Assembly: GCA_016788705.1 (NCBI GenBank)
Contig: JAEUSQ010000039.1
Coordinates: 186,001-250,000 of the forward strand
Length of the DNA: 64,000 bases
Source: Bacteroidetes Order II. bacterium
GTDB lineage: Bacteria > Bacteroidota > Rhodothermia > Rhodothermales > UBA2364
Direction: 5' to 3'
A program made the translations under genes and the position numbers. The notes below the pieces were generated by a model, which saw nothing but the letters and a program-made list of their open reading frames with translations, was not told the origin of the DNA and did not search any database. Positions 11,647-19,400 of this stretch are shown one piece after another. Within the stretch, counting starts at the first letter, position 1. Each line of letters opens with the position of its first letter.

Positions 11647-13296
<1,650 letters not shown>

Positions 13297-13352: not shown

Positions 13353-13653
13353 TATACCAAATTTCACTTCCTGCTACAACTATGCTTAAAATTGTCTATA
13401 ATGATACACATCCTCAAAATCGCTTCAAAACCACATGCCCTAAATAGGGATTGCAGATAGAGAAAAACATTTCTTGCGGACTTGACAAAATCATCACAAT
13501 TTATTATACTTATACAAGTAATTTATTTCACTATACTTTTAAGCATAAATATCTTATGGACAAGCCACAAGCCACAAGCCACAAGCCACAAGCCACAAGC
13601 CACAAGCCACGTTGTAAATAGTTTAACAGCAACAGGTTCCCGCCTACCATTTT
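13353..13653. other. AT-rich gap opening the accessory island
   Basis: It holds the heptanucleotide repeat at 13560-13610 and presumably the promoter of the exported-protein cassette. A 77-codon frame (13482-13715) runs through the repeat, but its middle is only repeat-encoded, so it is not called. Confidence 0.5.
13560..13610 (+). repeat. heptanucleotide tandem repeat, seven copies of ACAAGCC
   Basis: Seven exact head-to-tail copies of ACAAGCC, ending about 45 bases before the first codon called for the following lipoprotein gene. The unit length is not a multiple of three, and such arrays are prone to slippage. It lies in the likely promoter or leader. The frames on each side of it have stops, so a change in copy number would more likely alter promoter spacing than join reading frames. 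Confidence 0.95.
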
Positions 13654-14910
13654 TTGCAGCCACTTCTTTTACGCTTATCATTCTGTTTGTACTCTTTTTT
13701 TTCGGCAGGATGTGATTTATTTACTTCTAAAAAGCAGCATCAAGAACAACAAACTGACTTGGTCTTTATGCCTTATCAAAAGGTAGCACTAAACAAAAGT
13801 GAAAGTTTTAATGCCTATGAAGCCGCACGCAATGGTGAATACACTTGTTTTATTAGCCAATTAGCGCCAGAAGGTTCACCCGTAAAATACTACTATGGGC
13901 AGATTAAGTTACTTTTCGCCCCCCGTTTATTGGCTGAGATATCCGATATAAAGAACATCCAAGGAATTCGGTATTCTCTGAATGACGAAACCCTTAGCAC
14001 GACCACCCGATATGCAAGATGCCTGTTCCCGACTTCAGAAAAACTGTCTATGCTCTTGTTAAAACACTTACAGTTTGATCCTTCGAAGGCCTTGCCAGAT
14101 GACCTATGGATTGACGAGGCGCCCTCGTCTGCCCCACTTTCTAAAACCTCGGTTCTTTTAAAAATAATTTGTGGTAGAACCATTAAAAGCAGCGAAGGGT
14201 ATCCAACAGTCACCATTGAAATTAATTATGATGACTGTATTGAACTCCATCTTGAATTTCTTCTTCCCCCAGATTTGCCCACACATCCCGTTTGGAATGA
14301 TGACTTCATTGGCGGCGGCGGCGGGGTCGGCGGCGATTTGGTGGACTCAGATGACAATGTGCCACCTATGTGTCCTAATAATAAGGATAAGTTGATTAAG
14401 AAGTATTATTGCGATAAAACCAGGGTTTTTGACCTAACTCCCAGTCAATATAAAGATATTAAGGAAATCATTGACCGGATAAGAAGGCGAGGTGTAACCT
14501 GTGCTAAATTAGCCGATATCGGTGATATGCTTCTGGTACAAAAGGGATTTGTTGTTTCAAAGATTGACCCAAAAGATCGAGGTGGCCATGAACCATTTGC
14601 CTTCACAGCAACAGTTCCCACACCTGCATACTTTTCTTCCGACGGTAGGTTACAAGGCGTGTCGGGCGCATGGATCACTATAGATCCCAAAAACTGGGAT
14701 ATTAGTCAGGTTAAATATCTCGGAAGTAAAAGGATTACATTAGAGTGGATTATTGTTCACGAGTTGGATCATATACTATTAGGTAGTAACGTGGAGCATA
14801 TCTCATATACATACGAATTTGATGCCCCCCCGAATACTACTTTATACACAAAAAATACAGCCGAATGTTCTTATGATGCCAAAACGCCTCACCCCAAAAC
14901 CATACTTTGA
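13654..14910 (+). CDS. putative exported lipoprotein with HExxH zincin-like domain (cassette copy 1)
   Basis: 418 residues, unrecognised family. The start is lipoprotein-like (LSFCLYSFFSAGC, Cys20), so it is probably anchored in a membrane. An N-terminal domain (about 30-210) is joined by a glycine-rich linker (GGGGGVGG, near 220-227) to a C-terminal domain (about 240-418). That domain has KYYCDK, TCAKLADIG, and HELDH (residues 369-373, codon at 14758) with a further His at 382. HExxH plus a later His suggests a zinc metallopeptidase, but no family is assigned. The only start available is TTG, in an otherwise ATG-rich genome. The TGATG junction with the next gene shows the two are coupled. 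The C-terminal domain recurs at 15688-16413. Confidence 0.62.
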   Translation: MQPLLLRLSFCLYSFFSAGCDLFTSKKQHQEQQTDLVFMPYQKVALNKSESFNAYEAARNGEYTCFISQLAPEGSPVKYYYGQIKLLFAPRLLAEISDIKNIQGIRYSLNDETLSTTTRYARCLFPTSEKLSMLLLKHLQFDPSKALPDDLWIDEAPSSAPLSKTSVLLKIICGRTIKSSEGYPTVTIEINYDDCIELHLEFLLPPDLPTHPVWNDDFIGGGGGVGGDLVDSDDNVPPMCPNNKDKLIKKYYCDKTRVFDLTPSQYKDIKEIIDRIRRRGVTCAKLADIGDMLLVQKGFVVSKIDPKDRGGHEPFAFTATVPTPAYFSSDGRLQGVSGAWITIDPKNWDISQVKYLGSKRITLEWIIVHELDHILLGSNVEHISYTYEFDAPPNTTLYTKNTAECSYDAKTPHPKTIL

Positions 14911-15602
14911 TGCCCAAATTATTGATATACTGGTTCATTGGTGCGTGTTCAATGTCTATAAATGTATATGCACAATGTGAAGACATCATCCAGCCTACCA
15001 AACAGGAAATAAACGAAGGGTATGCACAAATGTCTGCAACGTTTATTCGAATTGTATTATCGTTTTTTTTAGAAGAAGGATCACCGAATGCAGACAAGTC
15101 AGTGGGCCCTCGGTTTGTTGACCACAAACGATTAACCAAACCTGGCGACTTTTTTGGGGATAAACTCTTTCATGATACCCCACCCTGTTGGGAAGGAACC
15201 TTGCCAGCAAAGAGAAAAATCGCCAGATTGATCCATAAAGAGGCTAAAAAATTAGGTGCTTTTTACATTGATTCCCGAAACGAAGTACAAACACTTGGAA
15301 AAATAACGGTTCATACACCAGACGATCATCAAGATAATTTTTGGAATCCCATACATTTTACCTATTTGATTTTATCCATCCCCAGAAAAGGAGGTCCCTA
15401 TAGCCCTGGTTTGTACATTGACGAAAAAGATATATACCCAAATGCTTGGACGATGCGTGTGACCAGAGTTGATGAACAAGGCGTTGCTCATTATGATGTT
15501 ACACTGCAAGAAATTAAGCCTAAAACATGGGTACTTATTCGTGCAAGATGGGTTTTGGGATTTCACTATGACTTCGTTTTTAAGAAGAAAAAAACGTCAT
15601 AA
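14910..15602 (+). CDS. exported partner protein of unknown family (cassette copy 1)
   Basis: 230 residues with a signal peptide (MPKLLIYWFIGACSMSINVYAQ), so exported. The mature part starts CEDIIQPTKQEINEGYAQMS and carries DHKRLTKPG, KLFHDTP, CWEGTLP, YIDSRNE and PRKGGPYS. All of these recur in the second copy at 16438-17163, and they point to one compact domain. I recognise no known family. The stop of the HExxH gene and this ATG share a base (TGATG), so the two proteins are likely made in fixed ratio. It could be a substrate, inhibitor or chaperone of the neighbour; this is inference. Confidence 0.65.
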   Translation: MPKLLIYWFIGACSMSINVYAQCEDIIQPTKQEINEGYAQMSATFIRIVLSFFLEEGSPNADKSVGPRFVDHKRLTKPGDFFGDKLFHDTPPCWEGTLPAKRKIARLIHKEAKKLGAFYIDSRNEVQTLGKITVHTPDDHQDNFWNPIHFTYLILSIPRKGGPYSPGLYIDEKDIYPNAWTMRVTRVDEQGVAHYDVTLQEIKPKTWVLIRARWVLGFHYDFVFKKKKTS

Positions 15603-15687
15603 CTGCTTGCTTGATAAAAACGAATATAAACTCCCAACTAAAATCGTTTCAAAATCAAAAAAATATCCCTTTAAACAAAAATAACGC

Positions 15688-16413
15688 ATGCTTCTTTTAT
15701 TTAATTGCCTATTAAGTATCTTATTCATTGGTTCTACCCTAACTACACCAGAAGCCAGTGGAAAGAATCCTTATCTTGATTCGTCTTCATTTACCGGCTT
15801 TTCGTCGGACACATTGTGGGATTACGGTATGGGCTTGAGAAGCCATGCAAAAAACAAAATTAAAATAGGCAATAGCGCATATCGCCCCCCTCCCTGTCCA
15901 AATAATGATCAATTTATCCGAAAATATTATTGTGATAAATCACGTGTTTCTCACTTAAATACTGAACAATATGCTAAGCTTGAACAGATCATCGAAACAA
16001 TAAGGACACGAGGCGATACCTGTAATAAGTTAGCAGGTATTGGAAGCCTTTTACTTTCTGAAAAAGGTATTGTCGTTGCTAAGATTGACCCCACGGATAG
16101 AGTAAATCGTAAGGTATTGGCTTTCCTTAAGATACCTGAATTTACTCAGTTTTTCCCTAACGAGGGCAGATTAATGTATCTGGATAACACCTTTATTACA
16201 TTAGACCCATTGATATTAGATGACACACAAACAGGATATTACAAAGATAAAATTGCTTTAGAATGGGTATTTATACATTTATTAGATCATATTTTATTAA
16301 AGAATCAACAACATATACCTTTTTGGCTTGAGTTTGGAGTGGATTCTTATGACAAAAATTTTACATTATCAACCGAAAATATAAATACATGTATTTCCAA
16401 ATCAATCAAGTAA
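15688..16413 (+). CDS. exported zincin-like paralogue lacking the catalytic Glu (cassette copy 2)
   Basis: 241 residues. It begins with a hydrophobic signal segment (MLLLFNCLLSILFIGS) and aligns from about residue 70 with the C-terminal domain of the 13654-14910 protein: CPNN, KYYCDKSRV, IRTRGDTCNKLAGIG, KIDPTDR. The N-terminal domain and glycine linker of copy 1 are missing. The active-site motif reads HLLDH (residues 197-201), so both His are kept but the Glu is Leu, and the later His (209) is kept. It may bind metal without hydrolysis. It is 24 bases before the second partner gene. The frame is intact, so it is not an obvious pseudogene. Confidence 0.6.
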   Translation: MLLLFNCLLSILFIGSTLTTPEASGKNPYLDSSSFTGFSSDTLWDYGMGLRSHAKNKIKIGNSAYRPPPCPNNDQFIRKYYCDKSRVSHLNTEQYAKLEQIIETIRTRGDTCNKLAGIGSLLLSEKGIVVAKIDPTDRVNRKVLAFLKIPEFTQFFPNEGRLMYLDNTFITLDPLILDDTQTGYYKDKIALEWVFIHLLDHILLKNQQHIPFWLEFGVDSYDKNFTLSTENINTCISKSIK

Positions 16414-16437
16414 ATAAAAAACCTCTGAAACATAATC

Positions 16438-17163
16438 ATGATGCATAAGCACTTTATATTATTTTTAATTTTAGGCTGCACATTCCATTTGCATGTATAT
16501 GCACAATGTGAAGACGTCATCCAGCCTACCAAACAGGAAATAAACGAAGGATATGCCCAGATGTCCTCTCACTTTATTAGAACTGTTTTGACTTTATTCT
16601 TAAGGGATAGATATCCTGTATCTGGTAGGTTTACTTCAGATGAGATACGTCCCCGTTTTATTGATCATAAACGTTTAACGAAACCAGGCGGTAATTTTTA
16701 TGGATATAAACTCTTTCATGACACGCCTTCATGTTGGGAAGGAACCTTGCCAACAAAGAAAAAGACGGCGAAACGAATTCTTCGGGAGGCCAAGAGATTA
16801 GGCGCTGTTTACATTGATTCTCGGAACGAAGAACAAACAATTGAAAGAATCACAATTGTTAAGCCAAGTAATAACGGCAAAATTTTGACTACAAAACCAA
16901 ATAATATTAATGACTTCTTTGAACCTATTCAATTTGCTTATTTAATTTTAGGCATACCCCGAAAAGGAGGGCCGTATAGTACGGATCATTATTTAAATAG
17001 ACGAGACATCTATCCGAGTTCATGGACCATGCGTGTGACTGAAGTTTCCGAGCAAAGCATCGCTTATTATGATATCATGTTACATAAGATTGAGCGAAAC
17101 AAATGGGGGATTCTTGATGTGAAAAAAATTGCAGATTACCATTTTGATTTTCCATTAAAGTAG
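16438..17163 (+). CDS. exported partner protein of unknown family (cassette copy 2)
   Basis: 241 residues, beginning with a hydrophobic signal segment that ends HLHVYAQ. It is a close paralogue of the 14910-15602 protein: CEDVIQPTKQEINEGYAQMS, DHKRLTKPGG, CWEGTLP, YIDSRNE and PRKGGPYS are shared. A 71-base stretch at the start of the mature region (16495-16565) matches 14964-15034 at 67 positions, so the duplication or a later conversion is recent. The ATG at 16438 is followed at once by another ATG (16441), either of which could start. It ends about 100 bases before the convergent T9SS gene. Confidence 0.65.
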   Translation: MMHKHFILFLILGCTFHLHVYAQCEDVIQPTKQEINEGYAQMSSHFIRTVLTLFLRDRYPVSGRFTSDEIRPRFIDHKRLTKPGGNFYGYKLFHDTPSCWEGTLPTKKKTAKRILREAKRLGAVYIDSRNEEQTIERITIVKPSNNGKILTTKPNNINDFFEPIQFAYLILGIPRKGGPYSTDHYLNRRDIYPSSWTMRVTEVSEQSIAYYDIMLHKIERNKWGILDVKKIADYHFDFPLK

Positions 17164-17261: not shown

Positions 17262-19400
17262 CTACTTTACTAACATCATTTTGTTTGTTAAAACATGATT
17301 ACCTACTTGCAGGCGATAAATATATGTACCACTCGGCAAGTCTTCGGCATTAAATTGAACCTCATGTTTTCCTGCATTTTGCCACCCTGTTTTTAATACA
17401 CTAATTTTCTTTCCTAAAACATCAAATACAGTAAGATTAATTTCGCTTGATTGGGGAAGCGTAAAAGTAATGGTCGTGTTTGGGTTAAAAGGATTAGGAT
17501 AATTTTGTGAAAGTGTTATTTTAGCAGGCAACTCTACTTTTCCTTCGTTTGCGATAAGAATTTTCTCAGGTGATATAAAAATACCATTTCCTTGTGTCCC
17601 TGCTAAAACAGCACCATCCGGCATGGCAATTATTTTAGTAATGGGATCTCTATATGAGTCTATTGTTAATCGGGGTTCAAGAATTGAATTATTAATTTCT
17701 ACAAAAGGTTCGTCAAATTTTGCTGATCTATATAAGCGATCTGTTCCTACAAAAATATTGCCTTTATTGTTCACATAAAAACCAGGCATATCATGATTGA
17801 TCTTTAATCCATTAATGGGCATCCATTCCCAACGACCTTGGCTTGCATTGAGTTGGACCAAGACTCCCGCTCCTACTCCATACACCATACCATCATCTCC
17901 GGCAATCCAAGAGGTGAACGTACAGACATTATTACAAGGTCTTATTAACTTGACCCAATTTTGGTTATTTAGATCGTATCTAAAAATATCAATATCGTCC
18001 TTTATAAATATATTCCCCTCTTTATCTCGAATAATATCTCTTATACTTTTATCCTCAATGCCTGTTCTAATGGATTTAACAAGGCCACTATTCTCGACTA
18101 AAACGACATCTCCATTCTTCAATAATACCATAAATGATTTATCGGACTTAATTATTCTATGAATAGGATTAGAGAATTCAAAGTCTTTAATAATTATGGA
18201 TTTAGCAATATAGTTATACTCAAATATTTTATTCATATCCAAAGAAAAGCCATAAATAATATTGCCTTCTATGATTAGATTTCTTGGATTTATTTTTTTC
18301 AGGTGTGTATCTTCAATCCAAGTCTTTCCTTTATCTGTAGTTTTATAAAGATTATGAACTCCTGTGAATGGATCTTCCCTTCTTATACTTTCAACGTAAA
18401 TAACTTCTTTATTTTCTGAATGATACACTTCCCTTATTATAGTCTTAGGTATATTGGTATTTTCCCAGAATGAAACATCACCACTCAGTTTATAAACTCC
18501 AGAGTATGTTGCAACGAACAAGTTATTTTTTCCTTTGATAATTTTAAATGATGGCATATTTATATTCGTCTTAATCCATGTTTTTTCTTCAATTTTATAA
18601 ATATAAAGTCCTTGTTCTGAAGCAAAGGCTATTTTATTATTGTCAATCTTATATATATCATATATTTTTTTACTTGGAAAAATTATTTCCCAAGTTTCGC
18701 CATGATCATTAGAACGCATTAGCCCGACATTTTCCGCCCCAGCAAATAAATTAGAAGGTAGATAAGGCTCTTGTTGTTCATAAAGTATGGATGTGATGTT
18801 GAAATTAGGAGATATTTTTTTCCAGCTACCATTTGTCAAACGTCGAAAAACCCCATATTTTGTACCTACCACAAGACCTTTATCTTGAAGTTGTTGAATA
18901 GTGGTTACGGAAGTGTCTTGGAATGCGATTATTTCCCATTTGGTGTCATCGCCTTTTAGTCCGTCAACAGATTTCCAAAGACCTGCTGATGTTGCCCAAA
19001 TCATACTTCCAGAAGAATCTTTTATCATATCAAAAGCGCTACCCTTAGAACAGCTATAATTATAAGAATCTTTTGGACTAAGTAGCATATTATAACCAAC
19101 AATACAGGCAGCATTCATACCAGAAATAGATAAAAATAATTCATTTTCTTTTTTTATCATAGCTTCTGTTTGATCATTTGAAAATCTTTGCACTTCCCAT
19201 GATAAGCCTTCATCATTAGAGTAGTAAACAGGATCGCTATAAGCATCATGGCCAATAGAGCCTGTTATAATTGAATTTTCATGATATATAATGGTAGGAA
19301 TAAATGTCTCCGTTGGCAAATTGGAACGAGACCAAAAGGGTTGTGCATTAGCAATGTCTGTGATAATAAATATCAGTACGAATGGAAAGTATTTTTTCAT
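17262..19400 (-). CDS. T9SS-exported protein with Asp-box (BNR/sortilin-like) propeller
   Basis: 712 residues. A signal peptide (about 1-19, ending ANAQ) is followed by Asp-box motifs: SNDEGLSW, SNDHGETW, TTDKGKTW. These fit a beta-propeller. The last 80 residues are a type IX secretion sorting domain (LSQNYPNPFNPNTTI, FDVLGKKI, LPSGTYIYRLQ). It should cross the outer membrane by T9SS and be released or anchored at the surface. The ligand is unknown. Its ATG overlaps the stop of a frameshifted relic (ATGA, 19397-19400), so it was once second in a coupled pair. The whole gene is AT-rich like its neighbours. Confidence 0.8.
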   Translation of the reverse strand: MKKYFPFVLIFIITDIANAQPFWSRSNLPTETFIPTIIYHENSIITGSIGHDAYSDPVYYSNDEGLSWEVQRFSNDQTEAMIKKENELFLSISGMNAACIVGYNMLLSPKDSYNYSCSKGSAFDMIKDSSGSMIWATSAGLWKSVDGLKGDDTKWEIIAFQDTSVTTIQQLQDKGLVVGTKYGVFRRLTNGSWKKISPNFNITSILYEQQEPYLPSNLFAGAENVGLMRSNDHGETWEIIFPSKKIYDIYKIDNNKIAFASEQGLYIYKIEEKTWIKTNINMPSFKIIKGKNNLFVATYSGVYKLSGDVSFWENTNIPKTIIREVYHSENKEVIYVESIRREDPFTGVHNLYKTTDKGKTWIEDTHLKKINPRNLIIEGNIIYGFSLDMNKIFEYNYIAKSIIIKDFEFSNPIHRIIKSDKSFMVLLKNGDVVLVENSGLVKSIRTGIEDKSIRDIIRDKEGNIFIKDDIDIFRYDLNNQNWVKLIRPCNNVCTFTSWIAGDDGMVYGVGAGVLVQLNASQGRWEWMPINGLKINHDMPGFYVNNKGNIFVGTDRLYRSAKFDEPFVEINNSILEPRLTIDSYRDPITKIIAMPDGAVLAGTQGNGIFISPEKILIANEGKVELPAKITLSQNYPNPFNPNTTITFTLPQSSEINLTVFDVLGKKISVLKTGWQNAGKHEVQFNAEDLPSGTYIYRLQVGNHVLTNKMMLVK

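Follow-up and report, generated by a model that had tools for sequence, protein, structure and literature searches.

As described for MafB and MafI of Neisseria in the portion of PMC4287609 used here, a genus-restricted N-terminal domain is joined to a variable C-terminal toxin domain with the immunity gene downstream, and short cassettes of a C-domain plus an immunity gene, some with their own start, take part in recombination. A comparable arrangement is found in SitA/SitI of Myxococcus (PMC5562445), in which a polymorphic lipoprotein toxin with a conserved N-terminal part and a variable C-domain is followed by an adjacent immunity gene. Here, a four-gene locus of this kind is described from a stretch of 64,000 nucleotides of a draft Bacteroidota genome (G000:C39:186001-250000, further called the window). 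The genes T1, P1, T2 and P2, encoding two exported zincin-like proteins and their exported partners, lie between groEL and a gene for a propeller protein of the type secreted by the type IX secretion system (T9SS). Compared with the two other available genus members (G001 and G002, both draft assemblies), the locus is, judging from its sequence, probably a genus-specific polymorphic toxin-immunity system.

The likeness to MafB/MafI includes a conserved N-domain after the signal peptide, a variable C-domain, a downstream partner and short recombining cassettes. In contrast to MafB with its type I signal peptide and DUF1020, T1 has a lipobox, an unrelated N-domain and a zincin-like domain, and its partner is exported. 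No Pfam match to DUF1020 was obtained for the proteins of the locus, which places them outside MafB, and the portion of PMC4287609 used here mentions no heptamer switch, whereas a heptamer is present in this locus. SitA1 and SitA3 differ by their nuclease toxin domains, their action in the cytoplasm and their delivery by TraA outer-membrane exchange (PMC5562445); here the partners are exported and no SitB is seen. NCBIfam returned no SitA match, the presence of SitA models in that library being unchecked. Tox-MPTase1-5 and other zincin-like toxin domains (PMC3482391) are likewise HExxH domains that form the C-terminal end of polymorphic secreted proteins, but they are typically attached to RHS proteins, PMC3482391 assigns no immunity family to them, and no Pfam match was found here. 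Within the same phylum, APD1/APD2 proteins of Amoebophilus (PMC3482391) carry a conserved domain right after the lipobox and polymorphic C-termini, although their domains are different and their predicted aim is a eukaryotic host. The proteins described here appear to be new families within a known kind, polymorphic toxin-immunity systems, with an unusual repeat switch and conserved copies without the catalytic Glu; by sequence they are neither MafB nor SitA.

The four genes are the following.

13654 to 14910, forward strand: T1, a modular lipoprotein with its lipobox Cys at 13711-13713, an N-domain, a GGGGGVGG linker and a zincin-like C-domain from 14365 with HELDH at 14758-14772

14910 to 15602, forward strand: P1, exported partner and proposed immunity protein, with weak NTF2-like similarity and invariant C and W residues

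15688 to 16413, forward strand: T2, a short exported zincin-like protein without N-domain, its domain starting at 15889 and carrying HLLDH at 16276-16290

16438 to 17163, forward strand: P2, exported partner of T2, 57% identical to P1

The preliminary description of this DNA had read the genes as a duplicated two-gene cassette with an HExxH protein in each unit. Two tandem pairs are indeed present, and since the C-terminal domains of T1 and T2 share 46% identity and P1 and P2 share 57%, the duplication is real. However, T2 starts with an unrelated leader of its own and lacks the N-domain of about 215 residues found in T1; what was duplicated is therefore the C-domain with its partner and not the whole cassette. 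Likewise, HExxH holds for T1 (HELDH) but not for T2 (HLLDH), where the catalytic Glu is absent. The reported translational coupling of the first pair stands with a corrected start: P1 was listed mechanically as an open reading frame at 14907-15602, while its likely start is the ATG at 14910, which overlaps the T1 stop by one base (TGATG) and corresponds to the ATG used by the relatives. The 24-base spacing in the second pair was confirmed. The TTG listed as the T1 start at 13654 results from the mechanical calling of open reading frames and is spurious, the conserved ATG being at 13556. The loss of the catalytic Glu in T2, the modular lipoprotein nature of T1 and the heptanucleotide repeat after its ATG had all been missed. 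G001 additionally has a gene for a repeat-rich, kelch-like T9SS protein, situated between groEL and the cassettes (L081:2-1168 and L015:2-1114, the latter on the reverse strand); the assembly is broken within its repeats, and the gene is absent in the window.

Each of the three genomes encodes one long protein with a lipobox, the N-domain of about 215 residues, the GGGGGVGG linker and a zincin-like C-domain. The N-domain occurs in no other protein, apart from two marginal profile matches in distant genomes (E 0.006-0.008) that were treated as chance. The short proteins (T2 of the window, T2 of G001 and two in G002, encoded on C3 and C8) have the same type of C-domain behind a different leader without a lipobox Cys. 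Compared to T1 of the window, the N-domains of the long proteins are 59-82% identical and the zincin domains 34-72%, with the long protein of G002 at the low end of both (59% versus 34%). A conserved N-terminal domain is thus combined with a variable C-domain, which we take to be the toxic part. An exported partner gene lies directly downstream of every zincin domain (7 of 7). Standalone cassettes of a C-domain and its partner exist (the T2 type), together with an orphan P1-type gene (L016) and an orphan homologue (L089) of a second partner, Px, introduced below. Four Cys are invariant in the C-domains, and in the partners two Cys past the signal peptide and two Trp are invariant; the conserved Cys in both proteins fit folding outside the cytosol. 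Taken together with the strict pairing and the lack of a family or structure match, they bear out the proposed exported enzyme-partner system of unrecognised families.

C-domain replacement occurs at a conserved boundary, as indicated by breakpoints at the PPxCPNN...YYCDK junction and by a scar at the 3' side. In the window, one breakpoint is located as follows.

15879 to 15950, forward strand: identity breakpoint at the start of the T2 zincin domain, with about 50-65% identity to G001 before it and 87-100% after it

It is this block that forms the conserved junction also present in L016. At the protein level, the leader of T2 is 34% identical to that of G001 and the zincin domain 83%, with the jump in the DNA at 15880. 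Past this position, the block is 92-98% identical, versus 87-89% for much of the chromosomal flank. The T9SS-sorted propeller protein (17262-19400, reverse strand) is also about 98% identical to G001, most flanking DNA being at 87-89%, and its gene seems to have been exchanged recently together with the T2-P2 block. The two short genes of G002, on C3 and C8 (L016 vs L017), display the opposite order: their leaders are 97-100% identical over about 300 bp, and identity falls to 37-57% from the start of the zincin domain on.

The long protein of G002 has a divergent C-domain followed by Px, an exported protein with no detectable relation to the P family (not significant at hhalign P 0.084, although the aligned stretch falls at the same C-terminal position). 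After Px comes an orphan P1-type gene, itself preceded by a remnant of a lost C-domain. This scar (L016 14106-14145) holds the last ~11 codons and the stop of the missing zincin directly before the orphan gene; 31 of its 40 bases are identical to G001, while the best stretch elsewhere in L016 reaches 24 of 40. In G002, a new C-domain with its partner has evidently displaced the old C-domain, and the old partner has stayed. A toxin with a cognate antidote predicts such kept and orphan partners, since the antidote must outlive the toxin; they are hard to explain by a chaperone or a housekeeping inhibitor. A lone Px homologue also stands beside a transposase in the window genome (L089; 27% identity, E 5.7e-13), and G001 has two Px fragments, one at a contig end, whereas a weak Px match in G375 was treated as chance. 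Between the G002 lipoprotein and Px, an inverted repeat (CATACAAGCCC...GGGCTTGTATG) at L016:13378-13440 may be a terminator or a cassette end.

The earlier suggestion of a protease with its inhibitor comes close, but the swapping, the displacement scar, the orphan partners and the orphan cassettes point to a polymorphic toxin with immunity. A related explanation is that the zincin is an exported metalloprotease with an inhibitor- or propeptide-like partner, duplicated and subfunctionalised, that serves the cell's own envelope or secretion biology and is not aimed at competitors. The stable pairing, the TGATG overlap, the dN/dS (ratio of nonsynonymous to synonymous substitution rates) of about 0.2-0.3 for all genes and the purifying selection on the Glu-less paralogues, which would suit a regulatory role, are consistent with this. 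It is nevertheless unlikely, as the module in G002 was swapped with a wholly unrelated partner and the absence from every other sampled genome is unlike housekeeping. Both families are present in all three available genus members; they were absent from 96 of 96 other genomes in a search of relatives and from 391 of 391 other sampled genomes of the phylum in a profile search. Scans of viral contigs with both families gave no relatives, and a scan of genome contigs gave the G001 record, Bacteroidetes bacterium UBA2364, as its sole match. Co-occurrence outside this genome, the lack of which would have counted against the system according to the preliminary description, is therefore present in the genus relatives, yet only inside the genus.

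Next to the exchange of domains, the start of the lipoprotein frame carries a candidate switch, with the following features.

13482 to 13510, forward strand: promoter-like element TTGACA-17 bp-TATACT, read from the sequence, belonging to a module common with the AraC-type regulator gene in G002

13556 to 13621, forward strand: conserved ATG of the lipoprotein frame at 13556, which opens the frame in G001; the window frame stops at TAG 13619

13560 to 13610, forward strand: heptanucleotide repeat (ACAAGCC), candidate phase-variation tract, 7.3 copies with units 100% identical

13695 to 13702, forward strand: T8 tract, net one base longer than the G001 region, a second frame break between ATG and lipobox

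L050:5468-5965, L051:1705-2268 (reverse strand) and L052:5442-5947: AraC/HTH_18 regulator, candidate phase-variable, with the heptamer repeat at its 5' end

An (AAGCCWC)n array follows the lipoprotein ATG in all three genomes, with 7.3 copies in the window, 3.3 in G001 and 12 in G002. Searching the three genomes revealed exactly two such loci in each, the second being the start of the AraC/HTH_18 regulator gene (7.4, 6.6 and 8.3 copies in G000, G001 and G002). The regulator can be read in frame in G001 and, from its second ATG, in G000, but is out of frame in G002. In the latter genome, the two 245-bp modules upstream of the lipoprotein and the regulator are 96% identical, hence the whole promoter-ATG-repeat module is shared or copied; window positions 13480-13608 match the G002 regulator locus (L052) at 74%. 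After the last cassette of G002, the promoter part of the module is copied once more (L016:16490-16945), followed by the start of a zinc-finger-like open frame of the IS1 insertion sequence (IS) type at the contig end.

Of the three lipoprotein frames, only that of G001 is open from the ATG (441 aa); in the window the ATG is out of frame, and in G002 a TAG at 12095 blocks the frame. As each heptamer unit shifts the frame, phase variation is the natural reading of these differences in copy number and frame. A repeat change alone as the means to restore the window frame was rejected on account of the second break in the T tract, and the G002 frame is likewise not restorable in this way. As in the simple sequence repeat (SSR) contingency loci of e.g. 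Haemophilus (PMC2651432), the repeat lies in the 5' coding region after the start codon and its copy number alters the frame, here seen between species only. In contrast to these loci, the repeat is a heptamer in Bacteroidota, it occurs in a toxin-like lipoprotein and an AraC-type regulator, and switching is inferred. The differences, seen between species and in draft assemblies, suggest that the lipoprotein and the regulator are phase-variable via the heptamer.

The same repeat, whose copy number and frame vary after the ATG, would also suit a surface lipoprotein subject to antigenic or phase variation, in which the C-domain is a surface structure recombined with the short cassettes and the partner serves as a chaperone or is displayed alongside; the lipoprotein signal and the recombination at the boundary of the domain agree with this. 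We consider it quite unlikely, because the partners change along with the C-domain, an old partner outlasted its lost C-domain and orphan partners exist. A chaperone or display role gives no reason to expect that a partner is retained on its own; moreover, the zincin signature would stay unexplained.

The catalytic Glu is kept in 4 of the 7 zincin domains, while H-x-L-D-H is invariant. All three N-domain lipoproteins keep HELDH, and the loss is confined to the short cassettes, where HLLDH (window and G001) and HQLDH (C8 of G002) form one orthologous set. The codons CAA, CTA and TTA at this position make a single-step series that could start from the GAA of the intact G002 copies. Both motif His are kept, and a third His is present in all zincin copies at varying spacing. 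Compared with G001, dN/dS is 0.20 for the T1 N-domain, 0.27 for the T1 zincin domain, 0.25 for T2 and 0.23 for P2, with all genes of the locus at about 0.2-0.3, so that all parts are under purifying selection. The Glu-less domains, at 0.20-0.30, are similar to the intact T1 domain, and their synonymous excess (p 2e-7 or below) indicates that they are maintained and not merely silent. Silent, decaying reserve cassettes were rejected as the sole reading on this ground.

That the whole cluster is a decaying mobile cassette or pseudogene group in a low-GC insertion could be read from the GC content (0.33-0.43 for the four-gene block vs 0.46 elsewhere in the window), the frame breaks in two lipoprotein genes and the IS elements nearby in G002 and on G000:C51. 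Against this, the coding regions past the leader are all open and each gene tested has a synonymous excess (Fisher p 2e-7 or lower), making decay extremely improbable. The Glu-less copies may instead act as decoys or support immunity, or alternatively bind metal. The latter leads to the idea that the domain is no peptidase at all, but an exported module rich in His that binds zinc or another metal and can do without the Glu, HExxH having been inherited in four copies without being essential. The invariant H-x-L-D-H next to a Glu in only 4 of 7, the third His in all copies and the selection on Glu-less copies are in its favour; it is still very unlikely given that all three N-domain lipoproteins retain HELDH, the one of G002 as a metzincin-type HELDHLYGYQH, with the loss confined to short cassettes. 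Combining these lines, a phase-variable toxin system in which the heptamer module drives both an exchangeable lipoprotein protease-toxin and the AraC-type regulator, and in which the Glu-less domain is selectively kept with its partner as a decoy or immunity part and not as silent reserve, is put forward tentatively, as a doubtful but specific proposal.

Several points weigh against a toxin-immunity system. The structure models are weak (pLDDT, a per-residue confidence score, of 50 for T1 and 64 for the partner) and gave no significant match in the PDB; no part of the locus is homologous to a toxin, immunity or presentation domain described so far; a delivery apparatus was not identified; and the system is carried by three genomes only. 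In addition, the lipoprotein frame is broken in two of the three draft genomes (repeat and extra T in the window, TAG in G002), and the purifying selection on 3 of 7 zincins without Glu is not predicted by a plain reserve-toxin role. No part of the locus had a significant match in Pfam, NCBIfam, PHROGs, PADLOC or PDB sequences, and neither a profile nor a fold match was found for the zincin C-domain. Its model (residues 240-379) is mostly at pLDDT 61-89 and has HELDH in a predicted helix (363-379). The best fold matches of the T1 model, PII/CutA-like proteins, probably fall on the low-confidence N-domain and were not used. The best matches of the partner model (pTM, a global fold confidence score, of 0.66), none of them significant, include several proteins of NTF2-like or cystatin-like type (best E 0.04). 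These NTF2-like structures and the invariant Trp near the C-terminus recall Imm-NTF2 and Imm-NTF2-2 (PMC3482391), although the partners here are exported and lack a Pfam match, and the NTF2 fold is only suggested (E 0.04 at best).

As a toxin-immunity system, the locus might work as follows. T1 would be a lipoprotein anchored in the envelope, in which a Gly-rich linker joins a conserved presentation domain to an exchangeable zincin-like metallopeptidase domain at the C-terminus; this latter domain most likely would attack envelope proteins of competing relatives. The exported partner may bind its cognate zincin in the periplasm and so protect the producer. The short cassettes of zincin and partner, near T1 and elsewhere, would be retained immunity and recombination donors, recombining at the conserved PPxCPNN...YYCDK junction. 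The 7-base repeat after the start codon probably would switch the lipoprotein on and off by frame, and likewise the AraC-type regulator.

If this is true, the polymorphic toxins would gain a new family of toxins, two new families of exported immunity proteins and a new carrier domain of the lipoprotein type. As the Tox-MPTase domains had no assigned immunity protein in the 2012 survey (PMC3482391), a zincin with a strictly linked exported partner would offer a testable pair, and immunity by a decoy or a dead enzyme could be put to a direct test with the conserved Glu-less copies. With a repeat-switched weapon and a regulator under the same switch, these bacteria would also provide a clean case in which to ask why clones vary their own weapons.

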